Shown in pieces: positions 11,509-43,042 of a stretch of 64,000 nt of DNA. This stretch comes from Rhodanobacteraceae bacterium ZG21-1. GTDB taxonomy: Bacteria; Pseudomonadota; Gammaproteobacteria; Xanthomonadales; Rhodanobacteraceae. Numbering within the stretch: position 1 is the first letter of the stretch; every line of letters starts with the position of its first letter. The stretch spans positions 434,001 through 498,000 of the forward strand of contig JAJEJU010000024.1 in assembly GCA_021390615.1 (NCBI GenBank). Direction: 5' to 3'. The notes beneath the pieces are model-generated. The model made no database searches. It saw only the letters and a program-made list of their open reading frames with translations, and was not told the DNA's origin. A program made the position numbers and the translations under genes.

Positions 11509-12615
11509 TCAGCGAGGCGGCGTTGCCGGCGCGGCCGCGGGTGACAGCGCAAAACGGGCCACATAGTGGCTGGCGGCGCTGCCGATCCACAGCATCTGCC
11601 CGAGCTGGATCGCGCCCGTGCCGAGTCCGAAGCGGGCATCGCCGGCGTCGAGCAGCGGCGTTCGTGCCAGCGTGTCCGGCCGGATGCGCTCAACCTTGAA
11701 GCGCGGCGGGCAGGCGGTCTTGCCGAGCACACAGCCGAACACGGCTTGCGGCGTGGCCATCTGGCCGGTGGCCAGCAGCTGGCCGTCATCGGCCCAGCGC
11801 AGATTGTCCGGCAGATAGTCCACCGACACCGAGCTTGGCTTGGCCTCGATATCGAGCGGCAGCCGCCAGATGCGGCGAGCCGCCCATTCGGAAACATAGA
11901 GCCAGTGCCGGTCGGGCGAGACCTCGATGCCGTTGGCACCGGACAAGGCCACCGGGCTGGCCCGTTGCCAGCCCGACGACGGCGACCAGCGCAGCACGTA
12001 GCCGGTCGGTTCGGCACGGGCGAACTGGCGCAGATAATCGCGTCGCGGATCGTACATGCCGGTGACCACGAAGCCGTCGTCCAGGGCGGCGACCGCATTC
12101 GGCCAGGCATCCACCGGCATGACTACGCAGCGTTTCCAATGCAGACGGGGTTGTCCGTCGACCAGATCCAGGTCGAAGGCCTCGATCGATTCGCGGCCGC
12201 CGTGATTGACCACGAGCACGTCCAGCGAACCGTCGCTGCGCCGCTGCACGTGCAGGCCGTGCGGCGCGAAAGTGCTCGCGGCGGGAGCGGCGCAGCCTGC
12301 CGTATGCACGGCATCGGATGGCCTTGCGAGCGTGGCGAGAGGGAACAGCTTGAGCGCGCGTGACGGTTCCGCCGCGTCGACGGCGTACAGCGCGCCGGCC
12401 TGGCTGCCGTCCGCGGCGGCCATGCTGCTGAGCAGGACCCAGCCGGTGCCTGGAATCTGTTGCAGGTCCTCGGCGCGCTGGACCGGCACCGGCGGAGCCA
12501 GCGGACTCGGCGCCGAAGAGGCTGCAGGCGCGAGGCAGCACAGCATGGTCGCAGCGAGGAACAGCGAACCGTGCCGGCGCGGCGGCGCCGGGAAAAAGGC
12601 GAGTGGGGAAGGCAT
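11509..12615 (-). CDS. Exported beta-propeller protein of unknown function
   Basis: A protein of about 368 residues with a signal peptide (FLAATMLCCLAPAASS) and a mature part built of repeated four-stranded blades such as GTGWVLLSSMA, DGSLDVLVVNHGG, NAVAALDDGFVVTGMY and NGIEVSPDRHWLYVSEWAARR. The last of these resembles the NGI...D...Y segment of SMP-30/gluconolactonase and paraoxonase-type calcium hydrolases. NHGG and the EV/EW acidic positions fit metal binding, but the full ligand set cannot be assigned. I chose the ATG at 12615, just before the signal peptide; an upstream frame reaches 12744 but adds an unlikely Cys/Pro-rich leader. A strong hairpin separates it from the upstream msrB, so it is probably its own unit. 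Confidence 0.75.
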   Translation of the reverse strand: MPSPLAFFPAPPRRHGSLFLAATMLCCLAPAASSAPSPLAPPVPVQRAEDLQQIPGTGWVLLSSMAAADGSQAGALYAVDAAEPSRALKLFPLATLARPSDAVHTAGCAAPAASTFAPHGLHVQRRSDGSLDVLVVNHGGRESIEAFDLDLVDGQPRLHWKRCVVMPVDAWPNAVAALDDGFVVTGMYDPRRDYLRQFARAEPTGYVLRWSPSSGWQRASPVALSGANGIEVSPDRHWLYVSEWAARRIWRLPLDIEAKPSSVSVDYLPDNLRWADDGQLLATGQMATPQAVFGCVLGKTACPPRFKVERIRPDTLARTPLLDAGDARFGLGTGAIQLGQMLWIGSAASHYVARFALSPAAAPATPPR

Positions 12616-12725
12616 GATCGTCTTGCGCTCCGGAGCCAACTGCCGGCTTGGCGACATGCCTGCCGAGCGCGGGCATCTTGGGCAGCCGGGAGCGTGCGGA
12701 CAATCGGTTTTGCCGGCCAAGCAAC

Positions 12726-12795
12726 GCGGAAAAAATTTCCGCAATCGAGTTGTCGGTGGCGCGTCTCGCGTCGAAACGGCGACGCGAGACGCGCC
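12726..12795 (-). terminator. Strong hairpin ending the dipZ-msrB transcript
   Basis: Positions 12758-12773 and 12780-12795 form a perfect 16-bp inverted repeat (arm GGCGCGTCTCGCGTCG) with a six-base loop AAACGG. In the leftward direction a second small hairpin follows (12742-12726, arms GCGGAAA/TTTCCGC), containing a run of T on the minus strand. It begins 19 bases past the msrB stop. Location and strength fit a transcription terminator or a 3'-end stabiliser; the T tract is further from the large stem than in a classical intrinsic terminator. Confidence 0.65.
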
Positions 12796-12813
12796 GCAAA
12801 ATAGCTGTGCGTG

Positions 12814-13452
12814 TCAGCCGCCTGCGCGTGCCACGAAACGCAGCGCCACCGAGTTCATGCAGTAGCGCAACCCGGTCGGTGGCGGACCGTCGTCGAAGAC
12901 ATGACCGAGATGGCCGTCGCAGCAGGCGCAGCTGATCGCGATGCGTTCCCAGCCGAAGCTGGTGTCGCGGATCTCGCGCACGTTCTGTTTGGCGATCGGC
13001 TGCCAGAAGCTGGGCCAGCCGGTGCCGGAGTCGAACTGGGTGGCGTCGTCGAACAGCGCGGTGTCGCAACCCACGCAGCGGTACAGCCCGCGTGCGGCGG
13101 GCTTCTCATGCTGGCCGCTGAAGGCGCGCTCGGTGCCGGCCTGGCGCAATACGTCATAGGCCTCGTCGGACAGCCGCGCGTGCCACTCCTGGTCGCTGAG
13201 CACCAGCTTGTTGGCGTGACAGGGGCCGAGGTCGCGGCCGTCCTGGTCGGCGAAGCATTCGAGCATCAGATCGCCGCCGGTAGCGGCCACGCCCGCCACG
13301 CCACCCATGGTGCTGGTGGTGCCTTGGCGTCCGGCGGCGAGCAGGCGCGGCAGCGCCAGACCACCGCCCACCGCCAGCAGCGCGCCGCCGGTCAGCGCGG
13401 TGCGCAGAAAGCGGCGACGGTCCTGCGCGAGCCTTTCATCGATGCGAGACAT
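12814..13452 (-). CDS. msrB: Tat-exported peptide-methionine (R)-S-oxide reductase
   Basis: MsrB reduces the R epimer of methionine sulfoxide in proteins. The C-terminal 130 residues hold the whole domain: zinc-binding pairs CVGC and CACC, GTGWPSFW, HLGHVF and the catalytic-cysteine segment RYCMNSVALRF. The N-terminus is a twin-arginine signal, DRRRFLRTALTGGALLAVGG (residues 11-30), so the enzyme should work in the periplasm. Start ATG 13452 has AGGAGG nearby. The gene follows dipZ by 30 bases and shares its promoter, which suggests that DipZ supplies electrons. Most cytoplasmic MsrBs lack any signal, so the export signal is a real feature. Confidence 0.93.
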   Translation of the reverse strand: MSRIDERLAQDRRRFLRTALTGGALLAVGGGLALPRLLAAGRQGTTSTMGGVAGVAATGGDLMLECFADQDGRDLGPCHANKLVLSDQEWHARLSDEAYDVLRQAGTERAFSGQHEKPAARGLYRCVGCDTALFDDATQFDSGTGWPSFWQPIAKQNVREIRDTSFGWERIAISCACCDGHLGHVFDDGPPPTGLRYCMNSVALRFVARAGG

Positions 13453-13482
13453 GCGAACCTCCTGAAAGGATGGAACGAGGGT

Positions 13483-15204
13483 TCAACCGAAGGTGAAGGC
13501 GTAGGCGTGTACGCCGGGATCGAGGAACTCGATCTCGAACAGCCGCTCGCCGGTACCATGGGCTTGCCGCACCAGTTGATAGAGGCGCTGGCTGTCCACC
13601 GTGCCGTTGCCGTCGGCGTCGATGTCCATGCCGTGGTCGGCGCCGGGCGCCTTGCCGTCGATCCGCACGCGGAAGCGCACTGGCTTGCCGTCCGCGCCGG
13701 GGCCGAGCACCAGGTGCAGGTCGCGGCCGCGGAAGCGGTAGACGATGCGGCCGCCGGCGCGATCCAGTTGCGCGTTCTCGTCGTGCACCGTCCAGCGTCC
13801 GTCCAGGGTCCATTGATTGACCGCCAGTGTGGTGGGCGCGTGATAGTCGAAGCTGTCGTCGTGCGCCACCGCGCCACCGGCGAAGCCTTCCGCCCGCGCG
13901 TAGCCGACGTAGGTTTCCGACGAGCGCTGCGCGTCGCCGGACGAGGCCGCTTCGGCGCCGCCGGCGCCGGGCTGCGCATAGCCGCCCGGCAGGTTCTTCT
14001 GGCCGGCCTCCGCGAGCAGCTGGCGGATCACGTCTTCGCTGTGCTGGTACTCGCCTTCGCCGAAGTGATGGGCGCGAATGCGTCCCTGCGCATCGATGAA
14101 GTAGTGCGCCGGCCAGTATTCGTTGTTGAAGCCCTGCCAGATCGCATAGTCGTTATCCATCGCCACCGGATAGTCGACGCCGAGGTCCTTGATCGCCTTG
14201 GCCACATTGCCTTCGTCCTTCTCGAAGGCGAACTCCGGCGCGTGCACGCCGATCACCACCAGGCCGTGGTCGCGGTATTTGTCGGCCCAGGCGCGCACAT
14301 AGGGCAGCGAGCGGATGCAGTTGATGCAGGAATAGGTCCAGAAATCGACCAGCACCACCTTGCCGCGCAGGGACTGCGCGCTCAGCGGCGGGCTGTTGAA
14401 CCAGCGTGTGGCGCCGGCCAGCGAAGGCAGTTCGCCTTCCACCGGCAGCGCGGCGCCGGCCTGCACCACGGGCTGCGGCGGCGGCGCCGGGCGCACGCTG
14501 TCGATCAGGCCCTGCTCGAGGCGATTGGTGCCGCCCAGCGACAGCCGGGTCAGCACGCCGGTGTCGGCCCCCAACGCGATCGCCACCACGCCGGCCAGCA
14601 CCAGTGCGCCCAGTAGCTTGCGCAAGGATTCGCCGGCGCCGAGCGAGCGCTTCATCGCGGCGAACAGCTTGCCGCCGATCAGCAGCACCAGGGCCAGCGA
14701 AGTAGCCGCGCCGGCGGCGTAGGTGAACAGCAGCAGGGTGGTCTGCACGCTGGCCCCTTTCAGCGCCGCGCCGGTCAGCAGCAGGCCGAGGATGGGCCCG
14801 GCGCAGGGCGCCCACAGCAGGCCGGTGGCGACGCCCAGGCCGACCGCGGCCAGCGGCGAGTCGCCGCCTGCCTCGGAGCGCTGGCTGAGCCGGTTGCCCA
14901 GCGCGACGAACGGCCGCGCCAGCCATTCGGCGAGGTGGGTCGACAGCAAGGTCAGGCCCAGCAGGCCCAGTACCACGAGCGCGATCCAGCGTCCGTACTG
15001 GTTGGCGTGCACTGCCCAGCCGCCGCCTACCGCGGCCAGCGAGGCGACCAGGGCGAAGGTCACCGCCAGGCCCAGCAGCATCGGCAGTCCGCTGCGCAGG
15101 AACGGACGGTCGGCGCGGGCGAATACGAACGGCAGCACCGGCAGGATGCAGGGGCTGAGGATGGTCAGTACGCCGCCGAGGTAGGCGAGGATCAGCACAA
15201 TCAT
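13483..15204 (-). CDS. dipZ: DipZ-type fusion: CcdA-like membrane reductase plus periplasmic thioredoxin
   Basis: A 573-residue fusion. Residues 1-235 are a CcdA/DsbD-beta-like membrane domain with the two conserved cysteine segments LTILSPCILPVLPF and LLWAPCAGPILG. Residues about 260-415 form a TlpA/AhpC-like periplasmic thioredoxin domain with WTYSCINCIRSLPY (CINC active site). The last 130 residues form a beta-rich domain seen at the end of DipZ proteins. Such proteins pass electrons from cytoplasmic thioredoxin across the membrane. With msrB directly downstream, the likely end use is reduction of oxidised envelope proteins. It is expressed from a promoter that mirrors that of the divergent sigma gene. 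Confidence 0.93.
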   Translation of the reverse strand: MIVLILAYLGGVLTILSPCILPVLPFVFARADRPFLRSGLPMLLGLAVTFALVASLAAVGGGWAVHANQYGRWIALVVLGLLGLTLLSTHLAEWLARPFVALGNRLSQRSEAGGDSPLAAVGLGVATGLLWAPCAGPILGLLLTGAALKGASVQTTLLLFTYAAGAATSLALVLLIGGKLFAAMKRSLGAGESLRKLLGALVLAGVVAIALGADTGVLTRLSLGGTNRLEQGLIDSVRPAPPPQPVVQAGAALPVEGELPSLAGATRWFNSPPLSAQSLRGKVVLVDFWTYSCINCIRSLPYVRAWADKYRDHGLVVIGVHAPEFAFEKDEGNVAKAIKDLGVDYPVAMDNDYAIWQGFNNEYWPAHYFIDAQGRIRAHHFGEGEYQHSEDVIRQLLAEAGQKNLPGGYAQPGAGGAEAASSGDAQRSSETYVGYARAEGFAGGAVAHDDSFDYHAPTTLAVNQWTLDGRWTVHDENAQLDRAGGRIVYRFRGRDLHLVLGPGADGKPVRFRVRIDGKAPGADHGMDIDADGNGTVDSQRLYQLVRQAHGTGERLFEIEFLDPGVHAYAFTFG

Positions 15205-15238
15205 GGGTCGGGTCGCTTGGGTGGAGTCTGCTCGGTTA

Positions 15239-15264
15239 TTCGCTGCGACGGTCCGATCGGTTAC
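15239..15264 (-). promoter_or_regulatory. ECF-sigma promoter for dipZ-msrB
   Basis: On the minus strand GTAACC (15264-15259) is followed by exactly 16 bases and CGAA (15242-15239). The dipZ ATG lies 34 bases further. The same elements and spacing occur on the plus strand before the sigma gene, 23 bases away. The pattern equals the one I recall for SigF/NrsF-type (ECF16) systems, so recognition by the adjacent sigma factor is inferred. Confidence 0.8.
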
Positions 15265-15287
15265 CCGAGTCCGCCATCACCAGGCAT

Positions 15288-15313
15288 GTAACCGTCGGCC
15301 CGGCAGCAGCGAA
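15288..15313 (+). promoter_or_regulatory. ECF-sigma promoter for the sigma-nrsF operon
   Basis: GTAACC (15288-15293), a 16-base spacer and CGAA (15310-15313) lie 32 bases before the sigma factor ATG. It is the mirror image of the dipZ promoter, so the sigma factor probably activates its own operon. Confidence 0.8.
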
Positions 15314-15345
15314 TGCAAGGTAACGCCGCAATTAAGGAGGCGAGC

Positions 15346-16008
15346 ATGTCATTTCGCTTGACCGCCGGCGGCGCTTTGGTCCTAGATGGCGAGGTTTTCC
15401 CACCGGCAGCCTCGATCCGGACCGTGCAAGCTTCTGCCAGCGACAACGAGCGGCCCGACCAGCAGCGGGCACAATGGATGGCGGCCGCGCAAGCCGGCGA
15501 CCGCCAGGCCTACGAGCGCGTGCTGGCGGCCTCGACCGGCCTGATCCGCGCCGTGGCGCGGCGGCAGGGCGTGCCGGTGGATCAGCTCGACGACGTGGTG
15601 CAGGAGACTTTGTTGACCGTGCACCGCGTGCGCCACACCTATGATCCTTCGCGCTCCTACGACGCCTGGCTGGGCGCGATCGCGGCGCGCCGGGCAATCG
15701 ACCTGCTGCGCGGCGACGGTCGGCGCGGCCGGCGCGAAGTGCACGATCCGCTGGCGCTGGAAAGCTATGCCGGCCACGACGAAGCCGGCGCCGAGAGCGA
15801 GCGGGCGCAGCAGGCGCAGCGTCTGCGCGAGGCGATCGCCACGCTGCCGCCGGGACAGCGCGAAGCGGTCGAGCAGCTAGGTCTGCAGGAACGCAGCCTG
15901 GCCGAGGCCGCCGAGCACACCGGCCGCAACGCCGGCGCGCTGAAAGTGAATCTGCACCGTGCGATGAAGGCGCTGCGCAAGCGCCTGCAAGGAGGCTCCG
16001 ATGTCTGA
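15346..16008 (+). CDS. ECF sigma factor, SigF/NrsF-associated type
   Basis: A 220-residue ECF sigma factor starting at the ATG preceded by AAGGAGG. Region 2 spans about residues 45-120 (LDDVVQETLLTVHRVRHTYD and the aromatic/basic segment SYDAWLGAIAARRAIDLLR). Region 4 spans about 160-215 (LPPGQREAVEQLGLQERSLAEAAEHTG, then AGALKVNLHRAMKALRKRL). The first 40 residues are an extra N-terminal extension. It overlaps the next gene by eight bases, and that gene encodes an NrsF-type membrane anti-sigma factor. In Caulobacter such a pair responds to chromate/cadmium and oxidative stress. The signal here is unknown. Confidence 0.92.
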   Translation: MSFRLTAGGALVLDGEVFPPAASIRTVQASASDNERPDQQRAQWMAAAQAGDRQAYERVLAASTGLIRAVARRQGVPVDQLDDVVQETLLTVHRVRHTYDPSRSYDAWLGAIAARRAIDLLRGDGRRGRREVHDPLALESYAGHDEAGAESERAQQAQRLREAIATLPPGQREAVEQLGLQERSLAEAAEHTGRNAGALKVNLHRAMKALRKRLQGGSDV

Positions 16009-16654
16009 TCAACGCGCGGTGGAGGCCCTGATCCACAGCCTCGGGGCAGAACTGGCCCCGGTGCGGCGGCTGGCGCCGCCATGGCGGCGCACCCTGGGCT
16101 GGCTGCTGGCGGTAGCCGTGATCGCCGGCGTGCTGCTGATGCACTACGGCGCCACCCACATGCTGCAGCGCTGGGCCGGTGCGCCGGATCTCGGCTGGGC
16201 TGGACTGGGCGCCCTGCTCACTGCGGTCAGCGCGGCCTGGGCCGCCTTTTCGCTGGGCGTGCCGGGACGCCGCGCGGCCTGGGCCTGGCTGCCGGTGCCG
16301 CCGGCACTGCTGTGGATCAGCGCCAGCGGCGCCGGTTGCCTGCGCGGCTGGCTGGCGCCGGACACCCATATCGCGACCTTGTCGGAAGCGCCGGATTGCC
16401 TGTCTTTCATCGTCGGCTTCTCGGTGCCCTTGTCGGCGCTGCTGATCCTGCTGCTGCGCCGCGCCTTCCCGCTGCGGCCGGTGCTGGCCGCGGTGATGGT
16501 GGGGCTGGCCAGCGCGGCTGCTTCGGCCAGCCTGCTGGAGATCTGTCACGCCTTCGACGCGGCGCTCACCGATCTGCTGACCCATGCCCTGGCGGTGCTG
16601 CTGGTGGTGGCCGTCAACGCGGCGATGGGTGGCCGCCTGCTGACGCGCCGCTGA
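16001..16654 (+). CDS. nrsF: NrsF-type (DUF1109) membrane anti-sigma factor
   Basis: A 217-residue inner-membrane protein with about six helices after a short cytoplasmic N-terminus (DQRAVEALIHSLGAELAPVRRL) that typically holds the sigma factor. The plan, six helices with cysteines near the periplasmic side, is that of NrsF/DUF1109 proteins. Cysteines occur in SGAGCLRGW, APDCLSF and LEICHAF. In the Caulobacter homologue two conserved cysteines are needed for signal sensing, so the first two here are candidates. Overlap with the sigma gene (ATG within its last codons) indicates translational coupling and matched stoichiometry. Confidence 0.88.
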   Translation: MSDQRAVEALIHSLGAELAPVRRLAPPWRRTLGWLLAVAVIAGVLLMHYGATHMLQRWAGAPDLGWAGLGALLTAVSAAWAAFSLGVPGRRAAWAWLPVPPALLWISASGAGCLRGWLAPDTHIATLSEAPDCLSFIVGFSVPLSALLILLLRRAFPLRPVLAAVMVGLASAAASASLLEICHAFDAALTDLLTHALAVLLVVAVNAAMGGRLLTRR

Positions 16655-16738
16655 GTTGCGCCACCGCGCGGCGCGTATCAGCGGGCCCGGACCACGATGG
16701 TGGATAATCGGGGCCCCTTTCCGGCGCGTGCCTTCCCC

Positions 16739-17809
16739 ATGCATCAGCACTGGCTGTCCTCGCTCGGCGTCGAACATCCCCTGATCCAGGCGCCGATGGC
16801 CGGTTCCACGCCGCCCGAACTGGTCTCCGAAGTCAGCCGCGCCGGCGCGCTGGGCTCGCTGGGTGCGGGCTATCTGGAGCCGCAGGCGATCCTCGATCAG
16901 GCCGCGCGGATCCGCGCGCAGACCGATCGCCCCTACGGCATCAACCTGTTCGTCTTGCCCGACGAGTTCGAGGCGGACCTGGCAATGGTGGATCGACTGC
17001 GCGCCCGCCTCGACGCATTGATGGAACGCGAAGGGCTGGAGGTACGCACCAGCCTGCCGGCGCGCTGGGCGCCGCGCTACTCGGAGCAGTTCGCGGCGCT
17101 GTGCGAGGCGCAACCAGCCGTGGCCAGCTTCGCCTTCGGCCTGCCCAGCGCGGCGCAGATGGGCGAACTGAAGCGGCGCGGCATCGTGGTGGTCGGCACT
17201 GCGACCAGCGTGGTCGAGGCGCGTGCCTGGGCCGCGCTGGGCGCCGACGCGATCTGCGTGCAGGGTGCCGAAGCCGGCGGCCATCGCAGCACCTTCCTGC
17301 ATGAGCCGGAGGACGCGATGATCGGCCTGTTCGCGTTGCTGCCGTTGACTGTGCGTGCGGTGGAGATTCCGGTGATCGCCGCCGGCGGCATCATGGACGG
17401 TCGCGGCATGGCGGCGGCGGAAGTGCTCGGCGCGGCCGCCAGCATGCTGGGCACGGCCTTCCTGGCTTGTCCCGAGTCCTCGGCGGCGCCGGCCTGGAAG
17501 GCGGACCTGGCCCAGGTCGAAGAGCATCGGGTGACCACCATCCGCAGTTTTTCCGGACGCGCCGCGCGCGGCCTGCGCAATCGCTACGTCGAGGCCATGC
17601 CCAACACGGCGGCGGAACTGCCGCCGTATCCGGTGTTGAACGCACTGACCGCGCCGCTGCGCCGCGCCGCGGCCCAGGCCGGCCGGGCCGACCTGCTGTC
17701 CGAGTGGTGCGGGCAGGCGGCGGCGCTGGCACGCGGCTTGCCGGCGGCGCAGCTGGTGGCAGGGCTGATGCATGAATACCGGCTCGCCAGGCGCTCGCTG
17801 GCTGGCTGA
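16739..17809 (+). CDS. Nitronate monooxygenase family flavoprotein
   Basis: A 356-residue FMN-dependent TIM-barrel enzyme of the 2-nitropropane dioxygenase/nitronate monooxygenase family, which detoxifies alkyl nitronates. Diagnostic segments are LIQAPMAGSTPPELVSEVS at the N-terminus, GADAICVQGAEAGGHRST (flavin site with the conserved AGGH) and PVIAAGGIMDGRGM with the following LGTAFLACPES. The start is ATG 16739; a frame opening 42 bases earlier adds only a non-conserved leader. It is the last gene of the block before rsfS. FabK-like enoyl reductases look similar, but MAGSTPPEL and the overall length favour nitronate monooxygenase. Confidence 0.9.
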   Translation: MHQHWLSSLGVEHPLIQAPMAGSTPPELVSEVSRAGALGSLGAGYLEPQAILDQAARIRAQTDRPYGINLFVLPDEFEADLAMVDRLRARLDALMEREGLEVRTSLPARWAPRYSEQFAALCEAQPAVASFAFGLPSAAQMGELKRRGIVVVGTATSVVEARAWAALGADAICVQGAEAGGHRSTFLHEPEDAMIGLFALLPLTVRAVEIPVIAAGGIMDGRGMAAAEVLGAAASMLGTAFLACPESSAAPAWKADLAQVEEHRVTTIRSFSGRAARGLRNRYVEAMPNTAAELPPYPVLNALTAPLRRAAAQAGRADLLSEWCGQAAALARGLPAAQLVAGLMHEYRLARRSLAG

Positions 17810-42875: not shown

Positions 42876-43042
42876 GTATCGCGGCGATATGTCGATGACA
42901 GCGAGTCGTCGCCTGCTCTTGGCGTGAGCCTACGGCAGGCCTGGCTGTGAGCTAAGCCCTAGTCTGTTGCGGCTGCGTATTCGTTCGCAGCAGGAACGAC
43001 CGCGGTTGCTGGCCCGATCGCCCTGGCCTCACACTTGCGTGC

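Follow-up and report, generated by a model that had tools for sequence, protein, structure and literature searches.

Two copies of the motif GTAACC-N16-CGAA, one on each strand, lie between a sigma factor-nrsF operon and a divergent dipZ-msrB operon of Rhodanobacteraceae bacterium ZG21-1; with a probability of roughly 0.88, as judged from sequence, they are the −35 and −10 elements of two independent promoters for the adjacent ECF16-type sigma factor, which would thus head an autoregulated, NrsF-braked circuit for the repair of methionine sulfoxide in the periplasm. The reading is based on the box being conserved ahead of the sigma gene, of dipZ or msrB, and of msrA, and on its lack at msrA-type genes of genomes that do not encode the sigma factor. 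The features concerned lie in the window (the whole 64-kb stretch of DNA that was analysed) as follows.

12814–13452, minus strand: MsrB, 212 residues (PF01641 and TIGR00357), with a twin-arginine-type signal (RRRFL); its gene begins 30 bp after dipZ
13483–15204, minus strand: DipZ-like protein, 573 residues, with a DsbD-type membrane part, a redoxin domain containing CINC and a C-terminal Thioredoxin_10 domain
15239–15264, minus strand: predicted ECF16-type promoter of dipZ-msrB, −35 GTAACC at 15264–15259 and −10 CGAA at 15242–15239 (exact motif and conservation)
15288–15313, plus strand: predicted ECF16-type promoter of sigma-nrsF, −35 GTAACC at 15288–15293 and −10 CGAA at 15310–15313 (exact motif and conservation)
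15346–16008, plus strand: ECF sigma factor, 220 residues, with Sigma70_r2, Sigma70_r4_2 and Sigma70_r4 domains (regions 2 and 4 only)
16001–16654, plus strand: NrsF-type anti-sigma factor, 217 residues (PF06532, 73.8 bits against a cut-off of 26.8)

The locus in ZG21-1

Pfam and NCBIfam assign the genes as the initial annotation had read them, with one box ahead of sigma-nrsF and the other ahead of dipZ-msrB. For the sigma factor, only the general ECF superfamily model scored above cut-off among the matches listed (25 of 67 for NCBIfam). Its start is most likely the ATG at 15346, which has aaggag in front of it; the longer open reading frame, from 15313, would start within the −10 box. The sigma gene and nrsF overlap by 8 bp, and the latter encodes the single PF06532 match found in the ZG21-1 genome. 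DipZ proteins combine a DsbD membrane part and a periplasmic thioredoxin-like part in one chain; in the ZG21-1 protein Redoxin and Thioredoxin_10 exceed their cut-offs, while the membrane part is the weaker assignment because DsbD_TM (22 bits, E = 1.1e-4) stays under its cut-off of 27.1. A CxxC motif is present in 61 of 62 DipZ proteins of the family. All 62 full-length MsrB proteins of the family set contain RRx[FLM][LMVI] (a strict count, excluding the partial hits in L160, L188 and L203; no MsrB was detected in the stretches of L195, L206, L210 and L211), and from this twin-arginine-type signal the enzyme is predicted to be periplasmic. Downstream of nrsF, the window holds a nitronate monooxygenase-type gene, which carries no box.

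The initial annotation had noticed the motif on both strands within 75 bases and with identical spacing; both copies are exact, they are the only two in the 64-kb window, and 100 dinucleotide shuffles of the window contained none. From the end of the −10 element it is 32 nt to the likely ATG of the sigma gene and 34 nt to that of dipZ (15204), both of which are promoter distances. With two mismatches allowed, 34 copies were counted against a shuffle mean of 22.5, and three shuffles reached 34; only the exact form is therefore informative in the window. A copy with one mismatch, at 42984–43009 on the minus strand, lies within an open frame of the plus strand and is taken as a chance match. A consensus scan of 15100–15500 found neither a sigma-70 promoter nor a terminator, and a search for RNA elements across 12500–17000 gave zero Rfam matches at the gathering score.

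Conservation in Rhodanobacteraceae and further putative targets

When 147 sampled family genomes were searched with the sigma protein, an ortholog (E ≤ 2.4e-54) was found in 69, ZG21-1 included, representing 14 genera; nine further genomes with a match of 5.7e-27 or weaker were not counted, and all 69 loci were read. GTAAC-N17-CGAA stands ahead of the sigma gene in every one of them (69/69, ZG21-1 included) and ahead of the nearest divergent gene in 64 (dipZ in 58, msrB in 6); in those six no dipZ was found in the stretch read and msrB itself bears the box. In four more genomes the spacer of the dipZ box is shorter by one base; in the last one, G133, the stretch read contains neither dipZ nor msrB. 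The distance from the −10 element to the homology-placed start of dipZ or msrB is 29–36 nt in 59 of the 64 cases, and over all family sigma loci (383,303 bases) the motif occurs 159 times versus 24 times for the pattern written backward. Lack of conservation of the two motifs in relatives, which the initial annotation had named as evidence that would speak against its proposal, was looked for, and the opposite was found.

Their arrangement is far less constant. The gap between the two −35 boxes ranges from 2 to 2424 bp (median 24, 68 loci), and one genus includes six genomes where dipZ and the sigma gene are about 0.9–2.4 kb apart, with the box kept on each side. The mirror-image geometry emphasized at the outset is thus incidental, and the two sites are best regarded as two independent promoters rather than one mirrored element. 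The exact mirrored form with a gap of 10–40 bp occurs in 33 of the 147 family genomes; of 30 such loci inspected, 20 separate sigma from dipZ or msrB, eight separate a more distant sigma gene from a DUF2282-like gene, and two precede a cytochrome b561-like gene. One genus has a gene for a 215-residue, beta-barrel-like protein (by eye) upstream of sigma; it is situated between sigma and dipZ in L188 and L211, and upstream of sigma in L195.

Many relatives carry a third box. It follows nrsF in 22 of 68 genomes (L225 from G057 was excluded because it has no nrsF before the contig end) and precedes the gene for a small methionine-rich protein in 20 and for a DUF2282-like protein in two, one of these Pfam-tested. 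The methionine-rich proteins contain repeats such as MKHDAMK and have signal-like starts (by eye). Five of the 68 have a methionine-rich frame without a box after nrsF and 41 have neither, ZG21-1 among them; a search of the ZG21-1 genome with one such protein gave no match, a weak negative, as the gene of this kind in G007 escaped the same search. According to the accessible part of PMC8315932, methionine-rich MXKDX proteins act as a sacrificial scavenger in A. suillum and have a homolog in Brucella; the proteins seen here are likely to be an oxidant bait that Msr enzymes could recycle.

Genome-wide, the exact motif was counted nine times in ZG21-1 (5.52 Mb) versus three times for the backward pattern, and 94 versus 93 times over 13 relatives, which were picked one per genus for their sigma ortholog and not for targets. 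The bare motif is therefore not rare in relatives, the shuffles overstate its rarity, and it is position and conservation, not the motif alone, that identify targets. A looser form, GTAAC-N14-16-GCGAA, brought no gain (13 versus 17 for backward controls, genome-wide). The scan of this and related genomes for the motif upstream of genes, proposed in the initial annotation, did lead to further sites ahead of msrA and trx, with raw counts in the relatives near the control. Besides those of sigma and dipZ, the ZG21-1 sites lie ahead of msrA (L006), a thioredoxin and CcdA-like pair (L008), trxB (L004) and a Cupin_6/AraC regulator (L009); the remaining three (L005, L007 and L001, the last within a long frame) may be chance matches, since the motif counts of the relatives do not exceed the backward control.

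Of the 94 sites in relatives, 26 belong to the sigma locus and 68 lie elsewhere; for 23 of the latter an msr, trx or ccd gene lies within the next 1 kb, and for the other 45 none was found there. The ortholog of the secreted msrA of ZG21-1, whose product starts like a lipoprotein (LTAC, by eye), bears the box in all 13 relatives. In contrast, the box is missing between 300 bp before and 160 bp after the start of all 20 msrA-type genes taken from 16 sigma-less family genomes, in a comparison where seven of the 20 control proteins are at least 50% identical to ZG21-1 MsrA and 13 are below 50%, and where the sigma-bearing loci were reached through the motif, their 13 genomes not being motif-chosen. 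The ZG21-1-type trx gene is found in 6 of 14 genomes, ZG21-1 included, and has the box ahead of it in all six; G020, G027 and G143 encode close counterparts, G039 and G037 proteins of 35–37% identity. A ccdA-like gene follows trx in four, faces it across mirrored boxes in G039 and was not seen within 1 kb in G037.

For the sites at trxB and the Cupin_6/AraC gene, relatives provide weak support. A trxB box (L004, 501–1463, minus strand; L289) occurs in 2 of 14 genomes, ZG21-1 and one of the 13 relatives, and trxB was therefore rejected as a general target; if real, this box would close an electron path NADPH-TrxB-Trx-DipZ. A boxed AraC/Cupin_6 gene was also seen in one relative (L260). On contig C18 of ZG21-1, at about 907–912 kb, the boxed trx-ccdA pair (L008) and the AraC/Cupin_6 gene (L009) flank a DUF2282-like/DUF692/DUF2063 group (named by eye), for which a loose scan found no box of its own. 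Catalase-family genes lie behind a box in 5 of the 13 relatives (L245 and L291, Pfam-tested; L232, L280 and L287, by eye), and cytochrome b561 genes (PF01292) do so in L226, L237 and L062 (Pfam-tested) and in L013, L014 and others (by text rule); the latter are perhaps partners of molybdenum-type reductases.

The putative circuit and its alternatives

Directly observed are the genes and motifs, how far they are conserved, and that they occur together with the sigma factor. From these observations a mechanism can be proposed, for which promoter recognition, inhibition by NrsF and redox sensing are inferred by analogy to described ECF16 systems. NrsF, a predicted six-helix protein of the inner membrane, would keep the sigma factor inactive until a periplasmic oxidant alters its cysteines at the periplasmic face; the sigma factor set free would then transcribe its own operon, combining positive feedback with renewal of the brake, and the divergent operon for MsrB with its Tat-type signal and DipZ as its electron conduit. 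Elsewhere in the genome it would drive the genes for the secreted MsrA and for thioredoxin with a CcdA-like protein as a second conduit, and in many relatives the same sigma factor may also act at the promoter of the small methionine-rich protein. The conservation of both promoters across 14 genera and the msrA and trx sites support the closed circuit predicted in the initial annotation, in which the sigma factor would activate its own gene, the NrsF anti-sigma and dipZ-msrB.

NrsF is the putative sensor. Its AlphaFold model (mean pLDDT 90.6) has six long helices of 20–27 residues and some shorter ones; a Foldseek comparison with solved structures (PDB) gave no match at E ≤ 0.001. Residue C133 appears equivalent to Cys129 of B. 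japonicum OsrA, because in an aligned Brucella protein (L099) this column and that of His183 both hold Cys, separated by 50 residues like C129 and C179; Cys occupies the C133 column in all 68 family sequences and all 36 of the other set (invariant in 37). OsrA Cys179, reported in the accessible text of PMC3420878 to be needed for the H2O2 response, falls in a column that is His183 in 68 of 68 family proteins, with Cys182 one residue earlier in 58 of the 68; in the 36 other-set sequences this column holds Cys in 27 and His in nine, the nine being family-like by identity. Cys113 is present in all 68 family proteins. With His in place of OsrA Cys179, sensing by the ZG21-1 protein may differ; the cysteine shift is a lead and not a result, because the alignment could be one residue off. 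If the N-terminus is cytoplasmic, the model would place C113, C133 and C182 toward the periplasmic ends of helices.

Several other explanations of the two boxes were weighed. That they are two random matches between divergent genes can for practical purposes be dismissed, although the motif is no more frequent than its backward control in the 13 relatives; the presence of the box at 69/69 sigma and 64/69 dipZ or msrB genes speaks against it, and so do the 13 boxes seen at the msrA orthologs of 13 genomes, where random sites would give about 0.002 by a rough calculation that takes 150 bp and 4.3 Mb. The original judgement that chance is unlikely is thus borne out by conservation rather than by motif counts. 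Perfect inverted repeats, as formed by the half sites of the window, could also constitute an operator (GGTTAC-N23-GTAACC) for a dimeric regulator, the CGAA tails being incidental, but this reading was rejected because the half-site distance varies so widely; it is exceedingly improbable also in view of single copies that keep CGAA and its spacing ahead of msrA (13/13), the trx genes and the third gene, and of the published SigF box, which is the half site plus CGAA (PMC3511200, as far as its text is accessible). Real promoters might, on the other hand, be read mainly by another sigma factor while the neighbouring sigma-NrsF pair acts elsewhere. A −35 box can be common to several ECF sigma factors, yet the box at msrA-type genes goes with this one (14/14 genomes with it, 0/20 genes without it, 13 of these 20 being less than 50% identical to ZG21-1 MsrA), only a single NrsF was found in the genome, and the motif equals the published ECF16 box (available parts of PMC3511200, PMC8315932 and PMC3420878); this possibility is considered highly unlikely.

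Compatible with the promoter part is a further alternative, in which promoters and sigma factor are the same and the signal or main task is metal stress or disulfide reduction, not oxidized methionine. DipZ-type conduits can also act for other thiol proteins of the periplasm, and DUF2282 genes occur at many mirrored loci elsewhere (among the matches listed). Further, C. crescentus SigF is involved in the response to chromate, dichromate and cadmium (PMC3511200, accessible part). The targets shared here, however, are MsrB, MsrA, reductant conduits and, in relatives, the methionine-rich protein, a set resembling the HOCl-tied one of Brucella, so that this alternative seems rather unlikely. The preferred reading, an oxidant-responsive methionine-sulfoxide repair circuit, may be extended, tentatively and at somewhat less than even odds, to a full periplasmic bait-and-repair cycle run by one sigma factor in Rhodanobacteraceae: a secreted methionine-rich protein would absorb oxidant, MsrA and Tat-exported MsrB would restore it, DipZ (plus Trx-CcdA in some) would supply electrons in place of the MsrPQ of Brucella, and NrsF would sense through rearranged cysteines (C113, C133, C182; His183 at OsrA Cys179).

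Relation to known ECF16 systems and distribution

ZG21-1 has the traits of ECF16 (SigF/NrsF) systems, namely a sigma factor with regions 2 and 4, an NrsF/DUF1109 anti-sigma factor encoded in the same operon, six helices in the model of the latter, and the box; the comparison below refers to the accessible parts of the published reports. The ECF16 box, tGTAACc-N16-CGAA, stands ahead of the sigma operon and of targets (PMC3511200, PMC3420878). Among the closest known systems is EcfF/OsrA of B. japonicum, which is autoregulated and has three Msr genes and a DsbD-like/thioredoxin pair, bll1027-1026, under its control; OsrA is a DUF1109 anti-sigma factor with six membrane spans and the promoters are of the GTAAC type (PMC3420878), and ZG21-1 has the same kind of conduit pair behind a box (L008). 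The EcfF/OsrA targets, in contrast, are spread over several separate units, the consensus has a spacer of N14-15 and CG(t,a), and a DipZ fusion is not mentioned in the part of PMC3420878 available; the OsrA Cys179 column is His in ZG21-1. In Brucella melitensis the HOCl-inducible BcrS/AbcS system (ECF16) autoregulates and drives the neighbouring bcrXQP; there, too, the sigma/anti-sigma operon adjoins a repair operon, both with mapped GTAAC/CGAA-type promoters, and the methionine-rich MXKDX protein resembles those encoded after nrsF in ZG21-1 relatives (PMC8315932). The Brucella repair enzymes are MsrPQ-like, whereas ZG21-1 has MsrB with DipZ, and the methionine-rich gene lies within the Brucella repair operon (PMC8315932), whereas it has its own box after nrsF in 20 ZG21-1 relatives.

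Caulobacter crescentus SigF/NrsF shares the anti-sigma family and the very box GTAACC-N16-CGAA (PMC3511200); the initial annotation had cited the known SigF/NrsF regulon pattern in favour of the circuit. The regulon of C. crescentus SigF differs, comprising DUF2282, DUF692 and DUF2063 genes and others, and msrA expression was unchanged in SigF arrays (PMC3511200); PMC8315932, citing another source, counts Msr genes in the SigF regulon. RpoE7/EcfR7 of Sinorhizobium meliloti resembles ZG21-1 in having divergent sigma and target operons, both with ECF16-type promoters; RpoE7 drives the divergent operon and appears to drive itself, the target is a DUF692/DUF2063 operon, unlike that of ZG21-1, and H2O2, cadmium and chromate failed to induce the ECF16 fusions that were assayed (PMC6180224). 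In Haemophilus influenzae (RpoE2/HrsE) an ECF sigma factor likewise drives a nearby periplasmic Msr gene, msrAB, but HrsE is a cytoplasmic anti-sigma factor of 67 residues and not an NrsF, and autoregulation is very limited (PMC7907618).

Autoregulation through the box, control by NrsF, and Msr or DsbD-like targets are thus already published for other ECF16 systems, as far as the accessible texts go. The suggestion that DipZ-MsrB as a direct target is little described may hold for DipZ-MsrB itself; it does not for the principle, given the reports on EcfF/OsrA, BcrS/AbcS and RpoE7. In the open-licence literature, "ECF sigma", "DsbD" and "methionine sulfoxide" occurred together in PMC3420878 alone. 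Among the matches listed there, as judged from titles and the opening of the abstracts, no study of an NrsF system in Rhodanobacteraceae was found, and the searches gave no report of a DipZ-MsrB target, of its adjacency to the sigma gene, of a Rhodanobacteraceae regulon, of a separately promoted methionine-rich gene or of the altered cysteine pattern.

Beyond the family sample, a scan of 84,980 species genomes yielded at least 118 stretches with the mirrored pattern, at least 75 of them with a sigma factor on one side (rough text rules). Among the matches listed, the partner of sigma was DUF2282-like in 36, cytochrome b561-like in nine, dipZ in nine, a methionine-rich protein in five, msrA in three, trx in two and a VHCYG-type Cys-rich protein in two; msrB, a DUF1223-like and a radical-SAM-like gene occurred once each, and six partners were unclassified. 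Without sigma, again among the matches listed, DUF2282 faced the VHCYG type in 18 of 118, and in ten neither side was classified. This small Cys-rich protein (HCYGVNSCKG...) faces DUF2282 across mirrored boxes in L060, L073, L085, L112, L147 and others; one 70-residue stretch gave no Pfam match. In L074 and L148 (Variovorax ginsengisoli and a Sphingobium bin) mirrored boxes lie between msrB and msrA with no flanking sigma gene. The nine dipZ cases among the matches listed comprise seven from Rhodanobacter/Dyella, one Lysobacteraceae bin and one bin labelled Candidatus Eremiobacteraeota, some being the same contigs as in the family genomes; the contig from the last bin (L129) carries a Rhodanobacteraceae-like sigma-nrsF//dipZ-msrB locus, and the bin is probably misassigned. 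At E ≤ 1e-40, sigma orthologs were found in 45 of 299 genomes of the order, 43 of them from the same family, and in 1 of 369 genomes of the class, namely ZG21-1; in the sampled genomes, this version is essentially a family trait.

The modules behind the box are DipZ-MsrB, MsrB alone, MsrA, Trx-CcdA, cytochrome b561 genes, DUF2282 genes and methionine-rich proteins, which suggests that the promoter of ECF16 sigma factors stays the same as the modules it serves are swapped; box and position together may therefore help to find unknown genes for periplasmic stress. The cysteines of NrsF, shifted yet conserved, offer a direct route to asking how this protein senses oxidant. For Rhodanobacteraceae, a sequence observation becomes a defined and clearly testable regulon.
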